Both the position numbers and the translations under genes were made by a program. A stretch of DNA of 38,670 bases, taken from NCBI GenBank assembly GCA_017450215.1, contig JAFSVH010000026.1, positions 1-38,670 on the forward strand, given 5' to 3'. The stretch's first letter is position 1. Every line of letters starts with the position of its first letter. Source of the DNA: Bacilli bacterium (GTDB lineage Bacteria > Bacillota_I > Bacilli_A > ML615J-28 > CAG-698). The notes beneath the pieces are model-generated. The model worked only from the letters and a program-made list of their open reading frames with translations, did no database searches and had not been told where the DNA came from. Of the stretch, positions 1,423-11,742 are shown piece after piece.

Positions 1423-1501
1423 AAATATAAATATTTAAAAATATAAATATTTTAAAATTATATTAATTATATAAAAAATATATGAAAGGAGGATATTGAA
1501 A

Positions 1502-3715
1502 ATGCAAAATGAAGTTGTTTTTGATGTTAATCAAAACAAGATTATGACTTTAGATGATTTGTTTTCTAAATGTAAAGAATACATTCGCATGAAGAAGAAT
1601 CTTGATTTAATTGAAAAAGCTTATAATTTTTCTGCGAACCATCATGAAGGTCAATATCGTAAAAGTGGTGAACCATATTTTCAACATCCTCTACATGTTG
1701 CTTATATGCTTGCTGAAATGAGGACAGGACCAAATACTATTTGTGCTGGGCTCCTTCATGACGTTGTTGAAGACACTGCTGCTACTTTAGATGATGTTAG
1801 AAAAGTATTTGGTGATGATATTGCATCTTTAGTTGATGGCTTAACTAAGATTGGTAAACTTAAATATATGACTAAAGAGAAATCTTTAGAGAAGACTCAT
1901 CAAAAGATGTTCCTTGCTATGGCTAAGGATGTAAGAGTTATTATTGTAAAATTGATTGATAGATTACATAATATGCGGACACTATTTGCTCAAACTCCTG
2001 AAAAGCAAAAGACAATCGCAAAAGAAACTTTAGATTTGTATGCACCACTAGCTCATAAGCTAGGTATGTATAGAATTAAAGCTGAGCTTGAAGAATTAGG
2101 TTTGAAATATTATCATCCAGATGAATATGAAAAAGTTAAAGGTTTAATTGAAAACCATAAAAAGAACCGGGATTTAGATGTATCTGAGATGCAAAATAGA
2201 ATTGAAAAATTATTAATTGATAATAAGATTCAAAATTTCAAGCTTAAGGGTAGAATTAAAAATATTTATAGTGTATGGAAAAAGATGAATGATAAATCAA
2301 GATCTTTTGAACAGATTTATGATTTATTAGCTTTACGTATTATTGTTAATTCTATTGAAGATTGTTATCATGTTTTAGGTTTAATTCATGGTACATGGAC
2401 ACCAATTCCAATGCGGTTCAAGGATTATATTGCAACTCCTAAACCAAATCTTTATCAATCACTTCATACTACTGTTGTAGGTGTTAATGGTAATATTTAT
2501 GAAATTCAAATTAGAACTTATGACATGGATGAAGTTGCTGAAATGGGTATCGCTGCTCATTGGTCTTATAAGGAAAAAGATAAAAATTATAGTCCTGAAA
2601 AAGAGCAAAGGGAAGTTGGTGAAAAATTAAGATGGTTTAAAGAGATGGTCAGTTATGCTGAAATGGGTGAAGAAGAGGATAATGACCAATTAGAGAATAT
2701 CAAAGAAGATATTTTTAGTGCTAATGTTTATGTCTTTACTCCTAAAGGTGATGTAATCGATATGCCTAATGGAGCAACTCCACTTGATTTTGCTTATCGT
2801 ATTCATACTGAAGTTGGTAATCATACTGTTGGTGCTATTGTCAATAATAAGATTGTTCCTCTTACTTATAAATTAAAGACTGGGGACGTTGTTGAAATTA
2901 AGACAAATAAGAGTTTCAATGGTCCAACTAATGCTTGGTTAAAGATTGTAAAAACTGCTCATGCTAAGCATAAAATTAGTGCTATCTTAAACAAGAAGAA
3001 ACGTGATGAATTTATTGAAAGAGGTAGATTCGTCTTTGATAGTTTGATGCAATCAAACAATAATAGCAAAAAATTAAATGATAAAATGATTAAGGATGCC
3101 TTCCAAAAAGTTAATATTTCATCATTAGAAGAATTCTATTATGAAATAGGTAAAGGTGTTGTTAGTGATAAGGCTGCTTATAATAAATTATTTGGTGAAG
3201 AAGAAATCACTGATGAAATGCTTCTTAAACAATATAATGAGAATGTTGAAAGAAGAAAAAGAGTTCAAAATAGTTATGGTATTATTGTTGATGGACTTGA
3301 AAAAGCTCAAATCAAGGTTGCTCCATGCTGTCATCCAATATTAGGTGACCCAATAGTTGGTTATGTATCTAAAGGTAGTGGTGTTGTTGTTCATCGCTAT
3401 GAATGCCCTAATGTCACTGGACTAGATACTGATAGATTTATTCAAGTTTATTGGGATAGTGAAGAAGCAACAAGGACTTTAGAGACTTGTATTTCAATTC
3501 TTACCTTGAATCGTAAAAATATTTTGACTGATGTTATTAATGCACTTAACAGTGCATCAATCTCAATTTCATCAATCAATAATATGAATAAAAGAAATGG
3601 TGAATTGTTAATTAGAATTAAGTTGTTTGTGAAAAACGTGGATCAATTAGATTATGCGATCAATTTATTGTATAGAATAAATGATATTTATGAAGTTGAG
3701 AGGGATATGCGATGA
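1502..3715 (+). CDS. relA: Bifunctional (p)ppGpp synthetase/hydrolase Rel
   Basis: Makes and degrades the alarmone (p)ppGpp. Domain order in the 737-aa product: HD hydrolase (about 30-175, HD dyad in LLHDVVEDT at 84-92), synthetase (about 230-355), TGS (about 405-465), a Cys-containing linker (APCCHPILGDP), and a C-terminal ACT domain (about 660-737). The synthetase carries RFKD at 305-308, the RxKD type of bifunctional Rel rather than the acidic motif of RelA-only enzymes, and the HD residues are intact. Both activities are therefore expected. I chose the ATG at 1502 because AAAGGAGG ends 9 nt before it; an in-frame TTG at 1496 is too close to the ribosome binding site. Its TGA stop overlaps the dtd ATG. 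Confidence 0.96.
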   Translation: MQNEVVFDVNQNKIMTLDDLFSKCKEYIRMKKNLDLIEKAYNFSANHHEGQYRKSGEPYFQHPLHVAYMLAEMRTGPNTICAGLLHDVVEDTAATLDDVRKVFGDDIASLVDGLTKIGKLKYMTKEKSLEKTHQKMFLAMAKDVRVIIVKLIDRLHNMRTLFAQTPEKQKTIAKETLDLYAPLAHKLGMYRIKAELEELGLKYYHPDEYEKVKGLIENHKKNRDLDVSEMQNRIEKLLIDNKIQNFKLKGRIKNIYSVWKKMNDKSRSFEQIYDLLALRIIVNSIEDCYHVLGLIHGTWTPIPMRFKDYIATPKPNLYQSLHTTVVGVNGNIYEIQIRTYDMDEVAEMGIAAHWSYKEKDKNYSPEKEQREVGEKLRWFKEMVSYAEMGEEEDNDQLENIKEDIFSANVYVFTPKGDVIDMPNGATPLDFAYRIHTEVGNHTVGAIVNNKIVPLTYKLKTGDVVEIKTNKSFNGPTNAWLKIVKTAHAKHKISAILNKKKRDEFIERGRFVFDSLMQSNNNSKKLNDKMIKDAFQKVNISSLEEFYYEIGKGVVSDKAAYNKLFGEEEITDEMLLKQYNENVERRKRVQNSYGIIVDGLEKAQIKVAPCCHPILGDPIVGYVSKGSGVVVHRYECPNVTGLDTDRFIQVYWDSEEATRTLETCISILTLNRKNILTDVINALNSASISISSINNMNKRNGELLIRIKLFVKNVDQLDYAINLLYRINDIYEVERDMR

Positions 3716-4149
3716 AATGTATTATACAAAGAGTAAAACATGCCAAATGTGAAATAGATGGAAAAATTACTGGAGAAACCGAAGTAGGATATATGATTCT
3801 AGTTGGATTTAAACCAGAAGATAATGAATTAATTGTTGATAAAATGGTTAAGAAGATTGTTAATTTAAGGATATTTGAAGATGAAAATCAAAAGATGAAC
3901 TTAAATATCAAACAAGTAAATGGCAAAGTTTTATCTATTTCTCAATTTACTTTATATGCTAATACAAACGAAGGCAATCGTCCTTCCTTTGCTAATGCCA
4001 TGAAACCTAATCAAGCTATAATTCTTTATGATTCTTTTAATCATAAATTAAGAAGCGAAGGAATTGAGACTGAAACAGGAATCTTCGGTGCTGATATGCA
4101 AATCACATTAACTAATGATGGCCCTGTTACCATTATATTAGAATTTTAA
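3712..4149 (+). CDS. dtd: D-aminoacyl-tRNA deacylase
   Basis: Hydrolyses D-amino acids (for example D-Tyr) from mischarged tRNAs, a cytoplasmic quality-control step. The 145-aa product is full length for the family. It contains the active-site segment SISQFTLYA (about 76-84) and the C-terminal Gly-cisPro motif NDGPVTI (about 135-141). The start overlaps the rel stop in an ATGA arrangement, indicating translational coupling. The rel-dtd pair is a conserved Firmicutes arrangement. Confidence 0.95.
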   Translation: MKCIIQRVKHAKCEIDGKITGETEVGYMILVGFKPEDNELIVDKMVKKIVNLRIFEDENQKMNLNIKQVNGKVLSISQFTLYANTNEGNRPSFANAMKPNQAIILYDSFNHKLRSEGIETETGIFGADMQITLTNDGPVTIILEF

Positions 4150-4165
4150 GAATTTGGTGAATTAT

Positions 4166-7075
4166 ATGAATAAATCATTTACGAATAAAATTGACAAAAA
4201 AGATGTTAATGAGGCTCTTCCAACATTAAGACAAGAATTTGATGCTTTATGTAATAAAGAATTGAAATTTGCTTTAATTGACGAAGTTAAAGCCTTTAAA
4301 GAAAAATGTGAAGCAAGTGGTAATACTGATTATGTTTATAAATCAGATATTTTGATTTCTGATATTTATCTAGATCATTCTAGTTATGAAGAACCACTAA
4401 AATTATTATTAGCTGATTTTAAGCAAATTGATTATGCAATTTATCCAAAGACTTATGTTGAAATAATAGAAAGAATATTATTCATCTATATTACTAAACA
4501 AAATTATCGATTAGCTTTGAAATATGCATCATTAAAAGAGAAATTCATTGATTATAATGATTTAGATCAAGTAAATCGATTATTATTAGAAAAATCTTAT
4601 ATTTATGCTGAACTTAATGAAACTGAAAAAGCAATTGATACGCTTAAGAAAATAATCGATAAGCCTACAATGGCTACTCTTCCTTATGCTTTATCTAATC
4701 TTACTAAATTATATATTGATAAAAAGAATATTATTCTTGCTGAAGAGATGCTTAATAAATGTTTAGAAAATACAGATGATGATGAAGGTAGAATTTATTG
4801 TGACTATTTACTTGCAAAAATCTGCATATTGAAAGAAAACAACAATGAAGCTGCAATCATCTTAAAGCAAATCTTTGAAAATGAAGATATTAATGCTATG
4901 ACTCTACCTATGGTAATTGATTATTTAGATTTACTATATGATCAAAATAAATACGATGAGATGGCTTTAGTAATATCTAAGATTGCTTTGTTTGTTAATG
5001 CTAGTGATAATCTATATTTACAAAAGCAATTTAGTAAAAGTAAGATTAAATACTTACTTGCTACAAAGACAATTAATCAATTACAAGCAACTATTGATGA
5101 ATATGAAAAAATAGATAAAAAGATAATTGATAATGAGAAGAAGATTGCTTTTGAAATTAGTGAACTAGATAAGATGGAGGTAATTAATGAAACTGTTGAT
5201 AATATTGTTACTAATCTAGATTCTTTAATTGCTGTCTTTAATAACAATATTAATTATGATTCTTTAAGAGATGTATTTATGACATTCTGTAAGAGCCTTC
5301 AAAATGCTATTATGTTTGATTCTGCATCTTTTATTATGATTGATAAACCAGTGAATAATGAATTATTCCCATCTCAAGAATTGAATTTATATTATTATAG
5401 AAATCAAAAATTATATGAGAAGAATTTATCTTTATCAATGCTTGATAATAGTATTGTTCAATATGTTATCAATCAAAATAAATCATTAGGCTTTGATTTA
5501 AAGAAGAATCGAATTGATTTAATTAATATGTTCTATAATAGACCATTTATTGATGATCAATTATATTATGTTTATGCAGTACCTTGCTCTTATCAAGGCT
5601 CAATCTTTGGTGTTTTGGTTTTTACATCTCAAAATAACAATTTAACAGACAAGAATGTCTGCACTTATTTTGATTTTGGTGCTAAGATTTTTGAATCTTC
5701 TTTAACAACTTTCTACACTAATGAGGTTTATAACATTACTCAAGAAATGTATGATAGAACAGTACTTACTAATAATATTGGTTTAGTTAGATATAATGAT
5801 GATGAAATGGTTTTAAGTGTTTCATTAATGAATCTACTTAAACAAAAGAGTAATTACATTAATAGAAGAACTTATCTATATTATATTTCACGTAATGATT
5901 ATGAAAGATATATAAGAATTAGTAATAATGATAATTATCGTATTTCATATAAATTGAATATTGGTAATTTATATGTTCCTGTAACTGAAAATATTGAAAC
6001 ATTTACCGATAAATCAGGAAATAAATTATTCAAATTTGGTACTATCAGCGTAGATCAAGGTAATATTAAGACTCTAATTGATGGTAAAGGCTTATTACTT
6101 CAAAAGCTAGATGAAATAAAGAATTATGTTAGCAATTTAGAATATAAATTTGACTTTTTAAGATTTAAGACTATTCCATCTGATTATGAATTAATCAGAC
6201 AAACATTCTTAACTACTCCATATTATTTAAGTGATTCTGATTGTGTTTTAGTCTTAGATAATGAAATGAAGGTTGAAGTATTATTAGAAAAATTAGCTGC
6301 TATATCTGATTCATATACAATAATCAGATATCCTCGTGATGTCGTTAATATTGATTCATTATTAGAAATATCACAAATCATGTTAGATAGTGATTCTAAA
6401 CTTTATAGTGATGAAAAATATAAAGATTATCTAAAACGTGAAACTGCTACAATGCTAACAAGCAAAGCAATTAATGATCAATCATATAAAGCTGATTTAG
6501 GTGTTATTAGATTTGAAAGCTATGTTGATGAAATATGGATTGAACCACTATTATTCTTTAATGGTGATAAGAATAATGTTAATAAATTTGTTATGGTTAA
6601 TAACAAAAATATTAGGAATATGCTTTCTTATGAAAACAAAATTAAATATGATATTAAATTATTCCAAACCGTTGTAGATAATGGTATTTCGGTTAATACT
6701 TTATTATTCTTAAATAGTAAAGCTATTTATAAGATTATTGAAAAGCTTGATAATAATAATTCTAAAACTAATTTAAATAATTTATATTTTGTTATTAATG
6801 ATAATGATTATAAAGATATTAATGCTTTAATCGAAAGAATTAATAATTATGCTAATGTAATAATTAGTAGTGATGTACTTAAATATATTTCTATTATGAA
6901 TTTTGAAGTAAAAAATATTAAAGGTATATATTTAAATAAAGGTATTGATATTGAAGAAAGAGAAAGAATAATGAGAATTGCATCAACATATAAATTAGAT
7001 ATTGTTAGTCCAAGAAAGTTGAATGACTGGTCTAAGAATATTTATGAAAGTGATTATGTTGATATTGTGAAGTAG
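4166..7075 (+). CDS. TPR-GAF protein with degenerate GGDEF- and EAL-like modules
   Basis: A 969-aa protein with no signal peptide or clear membrane segment, so probably cytosolic. Residues about 60-315 look like helical TPR-type repeats. About 345-510 resembles a GAF domain, with a FDSASFIMID strand and a later SIFGVLVFTS strand. About 535-630 is PAS-like. About 645-760 resembles the C-terminal half of a GGDEF domain (SLLEISQIMLDSDSKLYSDEK) but lacks a GG(D/E)EF signature. About 765-965 resembles an EAL fold (KNIKGIYLN, then RIMRIASTYKLDIVSPRKL) without ExLxR or DDFG. Catalysis of c-di-GMP synthesis or breakdown is therefore unlikely; a ligand-sensing or scaffold role is inferred. The ATG at 4166 follows GGTGA at 5-nt spacing; a TTG 12 nt upstream lacks this. 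Domain calls are from pattern resemblance only. Confidence 0.6.
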   Translation: MNKSFTNKIDKKDVNEALPTLRQEFDALCNKELKFALIDEVKAFKEKCEASGNTDYVYKSDILISDIYLDHSSYEEPLKLLLADFKQIDYAIYPKTYVEIIERILFIYITKQNYRLALKYASLKEKFIDYNDLDQVNRLLLEKSYIYAELNETEKAIDTLKKIIDKPTMATLPYALSNLTKLYIDKKNIILAEEMLNKCLENTDDDEGRIYCDYLLAKICILKENNNEAAIILKQIFENEDINAMTLPMVIDYLDLLYDQNKYDEMALVISKIALFVNASDNLYLQKQFSKSKIKYLLATKTINQLQATIDEYEKIDKKIIDNEKKIAFEISELDKMEVINETVDNIVTNLDSLIAVFNNNINYDSLRDVFMTFCKSLQNAIMFDSASFIMIDKPVNNELFPSQELNLYYYRNQKLYEKNLSLSMLDNSIVQYVINQNKSLGFDLKKNRIDLINMFYNRPFIDDQLYYVYAVPCSYQGSIFGVLVFTSQNNNLTDKNVCTYFDFGAKIFESSLTTFYTNEVYNITQEMYDRTVLTNNIGLVRYNDDEMVLSVSLMNLLKQKSNYINRRTYLYYISRNDYERYIRISNNDNYRISYKLNIGNLYVPVTENIETFTDKSGNKLFKFGTISVDQGNIKTLIDGKGLLLQKLDEIKNYVSNLEYKFDFLRFKTIPSDYELIRQTFLTTPYYLSDSDCVLVLDNEMKVEVLLEKLAAISDSYTIIRYPRDVVNIDSLLEISQIMLDSDSKLYSDEKYKDYLKRETATMLTSKAINDQSYKADLGVIRFESYVDEIWIEPLLFFNGDKNNVNKFVMVNNKNIRNMLSYENKIKYDIKLFQTVVDNGISVNTLLFLNSKAIYKIIEKLDNNNSKTNLNNLYFVINDNDYKDINALIERINNYANVIISSDVLKYISIMNFEVKNIKGIYLNKGIDIEERERIMRIASTYKLDIVSPRKLNDWSKNIYESDYVDIVK

Positions 7076-7082
7076 GTTAATT

Positions 7083-8060
7083 ATGAAAGTATTATTATTT
7101 ATACAAAGTTTATTCGTACCTGGATATATGGTAAGAAGAAAGAATATGAATGTATTCATTTCTTTTCTTCTTTTGATTGCTTTTTCGGTTGTGGTTGCCT
7201 TACCAATGATTAATTATTTCAGTAAAGATAGATATACAATAATGGAATCTAGCTTGAATTTAAAAGCATTTAATTATGTGATTGATGAAAATTCAACTGT
7301 GGGTATGATTACTGACGAAGAAAGAGCAACTTATAATATGGTTTATTATAGTGATATTAAGAAGCTTGGAATCATGGCTAATAAAAAGGGTCTTGCTTAT
7401 CAAGATGAATTAGTTAATGGTCAAGAATATGTATTAAAATCATATATTCCTATTTTAGATGAAGAAGGTACAATAACTAATTATGAAACATATTATATTC
7501 ATATTGTTGTAGATGATTATGATATTAATAGTGATGAATCTGCAACATATGATATTACTAATAATTTCTTGAAATTAAAAAGAGAACCAGATAATTCATT
7601 CCATCATCTTTTGATTGCTTTTTATAGTTCAGGTGCTTATTTTGCTTATAGTGATGAAGCAACTCAATTAGTCACTTTGACTTATGGTGATAATGAAATT
7701 TATTTATCTGAGGGAGAAGATGCTACTTATTTATCTCATAAGATAATTGATTTACTTTATAGAGTATATCAATATAAAGCAACACTCAGATCTTTCATCT
7801 TTGTTTTTGCTTTACCAATTCTATTTACTATCGTGTTCTCTTGGATTTTTGGTAGATTTGGTGCCTTAAAAGGCTTTAGAGAATATTTAGCTGTTGGTAC
7901 TATTGTATGTATGAATTGTACTATTGTTGGAACGATTCTTTCATTTATCAATATGCAATTGTGTAATTATGTATTCAATTATTTCTCATTTGCCTTTATT
8001 GCTTATTATTTAGTTACAATAATGATAATTAATAGAAGACATAGAATACATATGGATTAG
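7083..8060 (+). CDS. Membrane protein with large extracytoplasmic loop (DUF1189-like topology)
   Basis: A 325-aa protein of unknown function. Membrane segments are visible at about 23-45, 236-256, 268-289 and 296-315. A hydrophilic, Tyr/Asp-rich stretch of about 185 residues between the first two is probably outside. The N-terminus (SLFVPGYMVRRK) is basic and probably cytoplasmic. This layout resembles DUF1189 membrane proteins, but I cannot confirm membership. It starts 7 nt after the stop of the GGDEF/EAL-like gene and is probably co-transcribed and functionally tied to it. The ribosome binding site is weak. Confidence 0.75.
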   Translation: MKVLLFIQSLFVPGYMVRRKNMNVFISFLLLIAFSVVVALPMINYFSKDRYTIMESSLNLKAFNYVIDENSTVGMITDEERATYNMVYYSDIKKLGIMANKKGLAYQDELVNGQEYVLKSYIPILDEEGTITNYETYYIHIVVDDYDINSDESATYDITNNFLKLKREPDNSFHHLLIAFYSSGAYFAYSDEATQLVTLTYGDNEIYLSEGEDATYLSHKIIDLLYRVYQYKATLRSFIFVFALPILFTIVFSWIFGRFGALKGFREYLAVGTIVCMNCTIVGTILSFINMQLCNYVFNYFSFAFIAYYLVTIMIINRRHRIHMD

Positions 8061-9867: not shown

Positions 9868-11742
9868 ATGAATAAAAAAACTGTTAATATTCACATTTTT
9901 AATGTGTTTGTAATTTTAGTCTTATTTGGTCTTGCCCTAGCTTTAACATCTTGCTTTGGCGTTACTAAAAAAGGCTGCCAACATGAATTTGAAATATTAG
10001 ACGAGGTTCAAGCTGTAGATTGCGAACATCCTGGACATTCTCATCAAAAATGTACTAAATGTGGTTTAGAAAAGACTGTTAAGCTTGTTATTCCACATGA
10101 AGTAGATGATCCTGAAGATTATATTTCTATTCAATATTGTAAGAAATGTAATAAGAGTGTTAGACTTGAAAGCTTAGAAACTGATAGAGAATATTTCAAT
10201 TATCATTATTCTAGTTCAATGTTAAATGAAGCATTAGCAGCAATTGATGCAATGCATGCTGTATATGAAGAATCACTAACGAAAGAAAAGAGTGATCAAG
10301 AATATGCTGATACAATCAATGAATTATATGGAGATTTTGATCTTAAATTCACTGCTGTTATCAATCAAAATAGAGCAGCTTCTGTTCAATTTGATATGGA
10401 GAACACTAAAGCTAATGAAGATAAATATGATACATTAAATAAAGCAACTAATGAAATTCAAGAAAAATATCGTGAATTATTATATGATTTATTCTATAGT
10501 GATTTAAAAGAATTAGTATTCACTCCAGAAGATATTGAAGATTTAGAAGATGAAATTGAAACATTTAAGAATCCTAGAGTAAGAGAATTAAATGACTTAA
10601 TTGATGAAATGGAAAATGATCTTTATTACAATACTGATGAAGAAGATTTTAATGAAGGTTATGCAGAATTATTAGGCTATAGAAATGAACTTGCTCAAAT
10701 CTATGGTTATGAAACATTCTATGAATATGCTCATGAAAATTATTATGGTAGAAGCTATTCAGTTGATGATTTAAAGATCTTTAGAAGAAATGCAAGAGAA
10801 GTATTGGCTGATGTTTATGCTATTGAAACTTCACGTGGTAAATCTGGATTAAGTGATAATGTAACTTATAATTCAATTTATAGTTTATTCTACACACCTA
10901 TCTTCAATAATAAACAAACATTAGAACTTTATATGAAGTTTGCAAAGAAGATGACAACTGATAAATTTGATTATTTAGGTGAAGTTAATAAAGCATTTAA
11001 GGATGGTAGAATTTTCATCTCTGGTGAAAATGGAAATGAAAGAGCATATACAACTACAGTTGATGTAGATGGTGAAAACAAGAACATTATGTTCTTTGGT
11101 AATTTTGAATATTATGCTGCTCCATTCACTCTAGTTCATGAAAGTGGTCACTTTATGTTTGATGCTTACGCATATGATTTGTATAATGATTATGATTTAT
11201 TTGAAGTACAATCTCAAACTAATGAAATGTTCTTCTTAAGTACTCTTTCTCAACAATTAAAGACTGTATATAAATCAATTGAACATTATGTATGGTATTC
11301 TAGATTAGATACTGTTGTAACTACAACATTAGTAGATGAATTTGAATATATGCTTTATCATAATTATTCAGATTTAGATGATAAATTTAAAGATGGTATT
11401 AGTGCTGATGAATATGATGATTTATATGAAGCTGTTAAGAAATTATATGGCGTTCAAGAATTAGACAATTATTATTGGCATTATTATTGCACTCAATCAA
11501 GTGTTTATGAAATTGCTTATGCAATATCATTAATTCCAACACTTGCAAAATTAATCGATATTAAAGAAGATTTTGATAGTGCATATAAAGATTATGTAAA
11601 ATTACAAACATTCTATAAAGATAGAAAATTCAAAGATGAATTCAATTTTGTAAATGTATTAAAATATGCTAATTTTGCTAATCCATTTGAAGATGCTACT
11701 TATGATAAGATTAAAGCCTATATTGATGTATTTAGTAAATAA
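9868..11742 (+). CDS. M3-family (oligoendopeptidase-type) lipoprotein with N-terminal Cys-rich segment
   Basis: A 624-aa predicted lipoprotein: hydrophobic signal about 10-27 with lipobox LTSC (Cys29). Residues 37-94 form a Cys/His-rich module with CxH at 37 and 52, CTKC at 62-65 and CKKC at 91-94, probably metal-binding or disulphide-linked. The rest is a helical M3-like peptidase with the zinc motif HESGH at 424-428 (VHESGHFMFD) and a candidate third ligand Glu453 in QTNEMFF. It would cleave peptides outside the membrane, unlike cytosolic PepF. It sits between xseA and xseB. The GAGG ribosome binding site is 7 nt before the ATG. Peptidase assignment is strong; substrate is unknown. Confidence 0.85.
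   Translation: MNKKTVNIHIFNVFVILVLFGLALALTSCFGVTKKGCQHEFEILDEVQAVDCEHPGHSHQKCTKCGLEKTVKLVIPHEVDDPEDYISIQYCKKCNKSVRLESLETDREYFNYHYSSSMLNEALAAIDAMHAVYEESLTKEKSDQEYADTINELYGDFDLKFTAVINQNRAASVQFDMENTKANEDKYDTLNKATNEIQEKYRELLYDLFYSDLKELVFTPEDIEDLEDEIETFKNPRVRELNDLIDEMENDLYYNTDEEDFNEGYAELLGYRNELAQIYGYETFYEYAHENYYGRSYSVDDLKIFRRNAREVLADVYAIETSRGKSGLSDNVTYNSIYSLFYTPIFNNKQTLELYMKFAKKMTTDKFDYLGEVNKAFKDGRIFISGENGNERAYTTTVDVDGENKNIMFFGNFEYYAAPFTLVHESGHFMFDAYAYDLYNDYDLFEVQSQTNEMFFLSTLSQQLKTVYKSIEHYVWYSRLDTVVTTTLVDEFEYMLYHNYSDLDDKFKDGISADEYDDLYEAVKKLYGVQELDNYYWHYYCTQSSVYEIAYAISLIPTLAKLIDIKEDFDSAYKDYVKLQTFYKDRKFKDEFNFVNVLKYANFANPFEDATYDKIKAYIDVFSK

Follow-up and report, generated by a model that had tools for sequence, protein, structure and literature searches.

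A degenerate GGDEF-EAL protein and its membrane-protein neighbour form a conserved pair in an order of Bacilli, retained even in genomes without recognisable c-di-GMP enzymes

The 38,670-nucleotide stretch of Bacilli bacterium DNA analysed here (the window) encodes two neighbouring proteins, P1 and P2, that form a real and well-conserved pair, unlabelled as far as the libraries searched show. P1 derives from a c-di-GMP enzyme of the GGDEF-EAL type, and P2 is a four-pass membrane protein. With moderate confidence, we favour the interpretation that P1 is an enzyme-free GAF/PAS sensor-scaffold whose dead output needs no c-di-GMP and acts through contact with another protein, probably P2. It is established that inactive GGDEF and EAL domains can serve as receptors or sensors or act via protein-protein interaction (PMC10333796, PMC5635695).

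The two genes lie in a same-strand run of open reading frames, comprising apt, rel, dtd, P1, P2, nusB and xseA, at the following positions of the window.

838: apt, start of the cluster
1496-3715: rel, open reading frame
3712-4149: dtd, open reading frame
4166..7075, plus strand: P1, 969-aa soluble TPR-GAF-PAS protein ending in degenerate GGDEF and EAL domains (ORF, family alignment, hhalign, AF2, Foldseek)
7083..8060, plus strand: P2, 325-aa four-pass membrane protein, distant relative of the DUF1189/Yip1 clan (ORF, alignment, Pfam, hydrophobicity, AF2)
8069: nusB, the gene after P2
8570: xseA, the gene after nusB

P1 runs from an ATG at 4166 to a stop at 7075; an in-frame TTG at 4154 is an unlikely start. 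The original prediction, made from the sequence alone, had described a P1 of 969 residues, P2 starting 7 nt further on, and the pair placed between dtd and nusB, all of which agrees with the reading frames. Its placement of P1 directly downstream of the (p)ppGpp enzyme was correct as to the proximity of rel, but dtd sits between the two. The dtd-P1 and P2-nusB gaps are 16 and 8 nt, and rel overlaps dtd by 4 nt; this short spacing in the rel-dtd-P1-P2-nusB run suggests one transcript for the genes from apt to xseA. A promoter scan returned 81 sites, against 82 expected by chance. The apt-rel-dtd genes are a common housekeeping cluster. Between xseA and dxs, the window also encodes a predicted lipoprotein (9868-11742) whose N-terminal part is rich in Cys and which carries a HESGH motif like that of M3 peptidases; relatives lack a gene for it at this place, and it looks like a lineage-specific insertion.

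The domains of P1 were delimited as listed below.

4217..5065, plus strand: TPR-like helical array, residues about 18-300 (family alignment, AF2)
5072..5242, plus strand: long linker helix, residues 303-359 (AF2)
5264..5650, plus strand: GAF-like domain, residues about 367-495 (alignment, AF2, Foldseek matches to GAF structures, e.g. 3ci6)
5651..5764, plus strand: second long signalling helix, residues 496-533 (AF2)
5765..6061, plus strand: PAS-like domain, residues about 534-632 (alignment, AF2, Pfam PAS_3)
6083..6388, plus strand: degenerate GGDEF domain, residues 640-741 (hhalign 94.9%, E 1e-8; AF2/Foldseek)
6410..7072, plus strand: degenerate EAL domain, residues 749-969 (hhalign 88%, E 3e-7; AF2/Foldseek)

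As a single sequence, P1 gave only sub-threshold TPR matches in Pfam and NCBIfam, no phmmer match in the PDB and nothing useful in a search of genome contigs; family alignments were required. An alignment of 21 P1-family sequences (A1) was divided into segments, and hhalign was used to compare these with canonical GGDEF and EAL domains gathered from the same order. In these profile-profile comparisons, residues 640-785 matched canonical GGDEF domains and residues 640-969 canonical EAL domains at the values listed above. The matches were nearly full length, colinear and in the right order, and controls (TPR, GAF, PAS, P2 and a HEPN-like protein described below) reached 1% at most. As folds, PF00990 and PF00563 are thus homologous over the whole GGDEF and EAL domains of P1, respectively, in agreement with Foldseek matches to GGDEF-EAL structures. 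Pfam PAS_3 was matched by 6 of the 21 relatives (best E 4.8e-6), and the TPR array is the best conserved part of P1 in the family, with a mean pairwise identity of 40%. An AF2 model built from 22 sequences (mean pLDDT 82) had as its top PDB matches the GGDEF-EAL part of RmcA (5m3c, E 7.8e-8), DosP and MorA, followed by TPR and GAF structures; its pTM of 0.40 means that the arrangement of the domains is not established. The GGDEF-like and EAL-like folds proposed for the end of P1 are therefore borne out by hhalign with controls, by AF2 and by Foldseek, and the opposite outcome, a C-terminal part predicted without such a fold, did not occur.

The active-site motifs of both domains have been lost. 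The two diagnostic positions, located by alignment of the 21 relatives, are as follows.

6230..6244, plus strand: GGDEF motif position, here SDSDC, residues 689-693
6542..6556, plus strand: ExLxR position, here EPLLF, with the family consensus E[VI]xxN

The GGDEF motif is degenerate in all 21 P1-family sequences and intact in none. P1 lacks the diguanylate cyclase signature GG[DE]EF and also misses the Pfam cut-off. Among the positions of EAL phosphodiesterases (ExLxR, Asn, Glu, DD and Lys), only the first Glu, that of EAL, persists (16/21), the other metal and substrate positions being lost or variable. The Arg of ExLxR is replaced by Asn in 16 of the 21 sequences and kept in one. The description of P1 as stripped of all catalytic motifs thus applies to the window protein and, as degeneracy, to its family, and we reject P1 as an active c-di-GMP enzyme.

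P1 might instead be a nucleotide receptor, with the dead EAL/GGDEF pocket binding c-di-GMP, (p)ppGpp or GTP and signalling to P2, as in LapD and FimX or in GTP-sensing GGDEF domains. Dead EAL and GGDEF domains can indeed be receptors (PMC10333796), and both the retained Glu and the position of rel two genes upstream of P1 are compatible with this. However, in EAL domains without catalytic activity, c-di-GMP binding has been described as depending on ExLxR (PMC10333796), and the loss of this motif from P1 makes a c-di-GMP receptor function appear unlikely. LapD and FimX resemble P1 in using a dead GGDEF-EAL module as signalling output, but they keep ExLxR and bind c-di-GMP, whereas P1 carries E[VI]xxN in a host genome without a detectable cyclase. 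Moreover, the positions of the GGDEF motif vary, ten further genomes with both genes have no recognisable cyclase, and no pointer to (p)ppGpp was found. We consider a nucleotide receptor improbable. Of the two options offered in the original prediction, a nucleotide-binding or a purely structural pair, we favour the structural one, given the missing c-di-GMP motif and the lack of a detectable GGDEF/EAL enzyme in the host genome.

Profile searches of the window genome (G000, 94% complete) gave no GGDEF, EAL or PilZ match. A genome of the same genus (G001) has 11 GGDEF and 5 EAL matches; the loss of such enzymes in the line of the window genome therefore looks recent. No GGDEF/EAL match at E 0.001 was obtained for G008, G021 and G025, or for G028, G030-G033, G035 and G036 of the sister family f2; in G008 (98% complete), the sole GGDEF-profile match was its own P1, at E 0.01. 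Together with the window genome, 11 genomes thus have both P1 and P2 (in G025 on different contigs) and no recognisable GGDEF or EAL enzyme, and 9 of these are at least 90% complete. Absence here means that draft genomes gave no match to the GGDEF and EAL profiles, the two enzyme types covered. None of 43 genomes gave a PilZ match.

The dead domains are nevertheless maintained. Between G008 and G021, both without such enzymes, dN/dS (Nei-Gojobori; dS 0.8-1.4) was 0.06 for the degenerate GGDEF domain and 0.15 for the degenerate EAL domain, so that these domains are under purifying selection in this pair of genomes, far from neutral. Across all P1 domains and genome pairs, dN/dS was below 0.5, mostly 0.06-0.3. 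A decaying P1, left without important function after the loss of c-di-GMP signalling, could account for the C-terminal half diverging fastest (22-26% mean identity) and for the missing EAL part in G028. However, the reading frame is intact in all complete relatives, and homology to the f2 protein makes the module older than the split of the two families. Decay, which the selection data largely refute, is thus very improbable, and P1 as a pseudogene is likewise rejected.

The pairing of P1 with P2 is a constant feature of two families. P1 homologues were detected in 24 of 60 related genomes at first search, and with the A1 alignment in 25 of the 28 genomes of the window's family (f1); the three without P1 are 61-83% complete. 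Of the f1 loci, 18 can be read beyond P1, and at each of these P2 comes next, either immediately or behind one HEPN-like gene; a nineteenth (G002), on a cut contig, retains a piece of P2. In the readable f1 loci the pair stands after apt-rel-dtd, as it does at all eight loci examined in f2, where a TPR-less P1' (368-595 aa) is followed by a larger P2'. In total, all 26 complete readable loci and one partial locus have P2 behind P1, with at most one HEPN-like gene between them. Profile-profile comparison gave 99.4% (E 5e-21) for the GAF-to-EAL part of P1 against P1' and 99.9% (E 2e-32) for P2 against P2', with crossed controls at 0.1%. Compared directly with canonical GGDEF and EAL domains, P1' reached 0.3% and 7%, neither significant; its homology to them runs via P1. 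The f2 genes after the pair are SpoIIIAH-like and pseudouridine-synthase-like rather than nusB, which leaves dtd-P1-P2 as the conserved unit. Among the 198 genomes of the class that were searched, P2 was confined to this order, save for one fragmentary match. The neighbourhood survey thus upholds the predicted co-occurrence, and homologues that never co-occur were not what we found. A recent insertion of the pair into the operon is rejected, as it is common to two families.

In many of the order's genomes, the gene after P2 likewise encodes a SpoIIIAH-like protein (PF12685; e.g. L038:10009-10530, L136:5985-6491 and L160:6281-6847); the window locus lacks it. G028 (L136:8071-9174, minus strand) carries a short P1 relative of 368 aa from which the EAL part has been lost; this part is therefore dispensable in one line.

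The HEPN-like protein (about 370 aa) has an invariant RNDxVGHP motif (R-x5-H). Its gene follows P1 in six genomes, and precedes P2 where the contig extends, at the following loci.

L040:5946-7052, minus strand: HEPN-like gene
L038:7952-9100, plus strand: HEPN-like gene
L051:6482-7648, minus strand: HEPN-like gene
L052:10541-11650, plus strand: HEPN-like gene
L138:1837-2937, plus strand: HEPN-like gene
L046:8598-9299, plus strand: HEPN-like gene

It gave nothing significant in Pfam, NCBIfam or PADLOC. The R-x5-H motif is a signature of many RNases, and the gene could thus be taken to favour a P1 that controls RNA turnover like E. coli CsrD, with P2 as a membrane anchor or an unrelated neighbour. 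CsrD has the same pair of dead modules and, in E. coli, acts with RNase E without c-di-GMP (PMC10333796). However, the HEPN-like gene is absent from the window and from most relatives, and CsrD is a membrane-anchored GAPES4-HAMP protein, whereas P1 has a TPR-GAF-PAS N-terminal part, no transmembrane segment by hydrophobic-segment prediction and a separate membrane protein beside it. We regard a CsrD-like role as quite improbable.

P2 has four hydrophobic segments, and its AF2 model is confident (pLDDT 90, pTM 0.83). Two of its parts bear on its possible function.

7254..7724, plus strand: domain predicted to lie outside and rich in beta structure, residues 58-214, about 157 residues (AF2 pLDDT 90; membrane side inferred from charge)
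7851..7874, plus strand: short loop joining TM2 to TM3, predicted to be cytosolic, residues 257-264 (alignment, TM prediction, AF2)

The four-pass membrane protein with a large outside loop that had been predicted is thus recovered. The TM2-TM3 loop belongs to a conserved FRK-G-LK-FKEYY motif, its charge places it in the cytosol, and it is a candidate docking site for P1. Foldseek found no PDB match to P2 at E 0.001, the best, TRPML1, being non-significant at E 0.045. P2 relatives gave weak matches to DUF1189 (6/19, best E 1.5e-4) and Yip1 (11/19), both of which belong to Pfam clan CL0112 (PMC6682643). In contrast to DUF1189 proteins (PF06691), the window P2 has no Pfam match and does not reach the DUF1189 gathering score, and true DUF1189 members are encoded at other loci in this order. 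Paralogues of P2 occur away from P1 (L154:7015-8103, in the window genome; L155:1610-2704; L156:5753-6820; L157:6896-7909; L164:2833-3972), and all but that of L154 adjoin a gene resembling, by eye, a QueT transporter or an M3-type peptidase. Tandem P2 copies lie beside P1 in two genera (L044:7141-9106 and L045:11368-13360).

P1 and P2 might also be functionally unrelated and held together by the inertia of a housekeeping operon that rearranges slowly. Their flanks consist of ordinary genes, the cluster as a whole shows little change in f1, and some P2 paralogues have no P1 neighbour, so that P2-type proteins can work alone. The HEPN-like gene between P1 and P2 in some genomes and the missing TPR part in f2 also count against the sensor-scaffold interpretation. 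In a mirror-tree test corrected for rel and xseA, the P1-P2 distance correlation was weak (partial r 0.26, p 0.057) and below that of P2-dtd (0.54, p 0.001), for which no interaction is expected; the test was therefore set aside. Against inertia, the pair remains together in f2 with a different flank on the nusB side, tandem P2 copies occur beside P1 at two loci, and both genes evolve fast yet persist in lineages that have no other GGDEF-EAL gene. We consider inertia an unlikely explanation.

In the sensor-scaffold model that we favour, the likely inputs of P1 would be its GAF and PAS domains, and the long helices that connect them would couple input to output. With its chemistry gone, the dead GGDEF-EAL pair, as the output, would have to act through protein contact. 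The TPR array, where present, may bind a further partner. P2 is the best candidate target because it is the constant neighbour of P1; probably co-transcribed, it would be touched via its conserved cytosolic loop. P1 may thereby pass a cytoplasmic cue to the outside domain of P2, or the signal may run in reverse. The large predicted outside domain makes the suggested connection to envelope state plausible. The suggested link to the stringent response finds no support apart from gene order: apt-rel-dtd is a widespread housekeeping group, and the f2 pair retains it as a neighbour, but not nusB.

The nearest structural relatives of P1, RmcA (PA0575), DosP and MorA, share its fold and (PAS-)GGDEF-EAL module order, but they are c-di-GMP enzymes or sensors with motifs, whereas P1 is motif-less, adds TPR and GAF domains and has about 10% identity to them. 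Staphylococcal GdpS is likewise a lone GGDEF-type protein, its host genomes having no EAL, HD-GYP or PilZ proteins (PMC9714401); unlike P1, it keeps a conserved GGDEF domain, and P1 has an EAL part. In the literature searched, of which coverage was incomplete, we found no description of the P1-P2 pair. A dead GGDEF-EAL adaptor is thus of a known kind; new are the architecture, the fixed membrane partner and the retention without recognisable c-di-GMP enzymes.

Tentatively, the pair may be an order-specific cytoplasm-to-envelope module, in which a complete GGDEF-EAL output repurposed to work free of c-di-GMP drives P2 and has been kept through several losses of the entire c-di-GMP system; we hold this wider proposal to be possible, though with less confidence than the scaffold function itself. 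Most work on dead GGDEF and EAL domains concerns bacteria that still use c-di-GMP, which makes residual nucleotide sensing and new function hard to separate. Here, natural variation serves as the experiment, with close relatives that have or lack recognisable c-di-GMP enzymes keeping the same dead P1, under purifying selection, and the same P2. The pair provides a first setting for the P2 membrane protein family, whose confident model matches no PDB entry, and makes the question of whether a GGDEF-EAL module can become purely a protein-interaction device directly testable.
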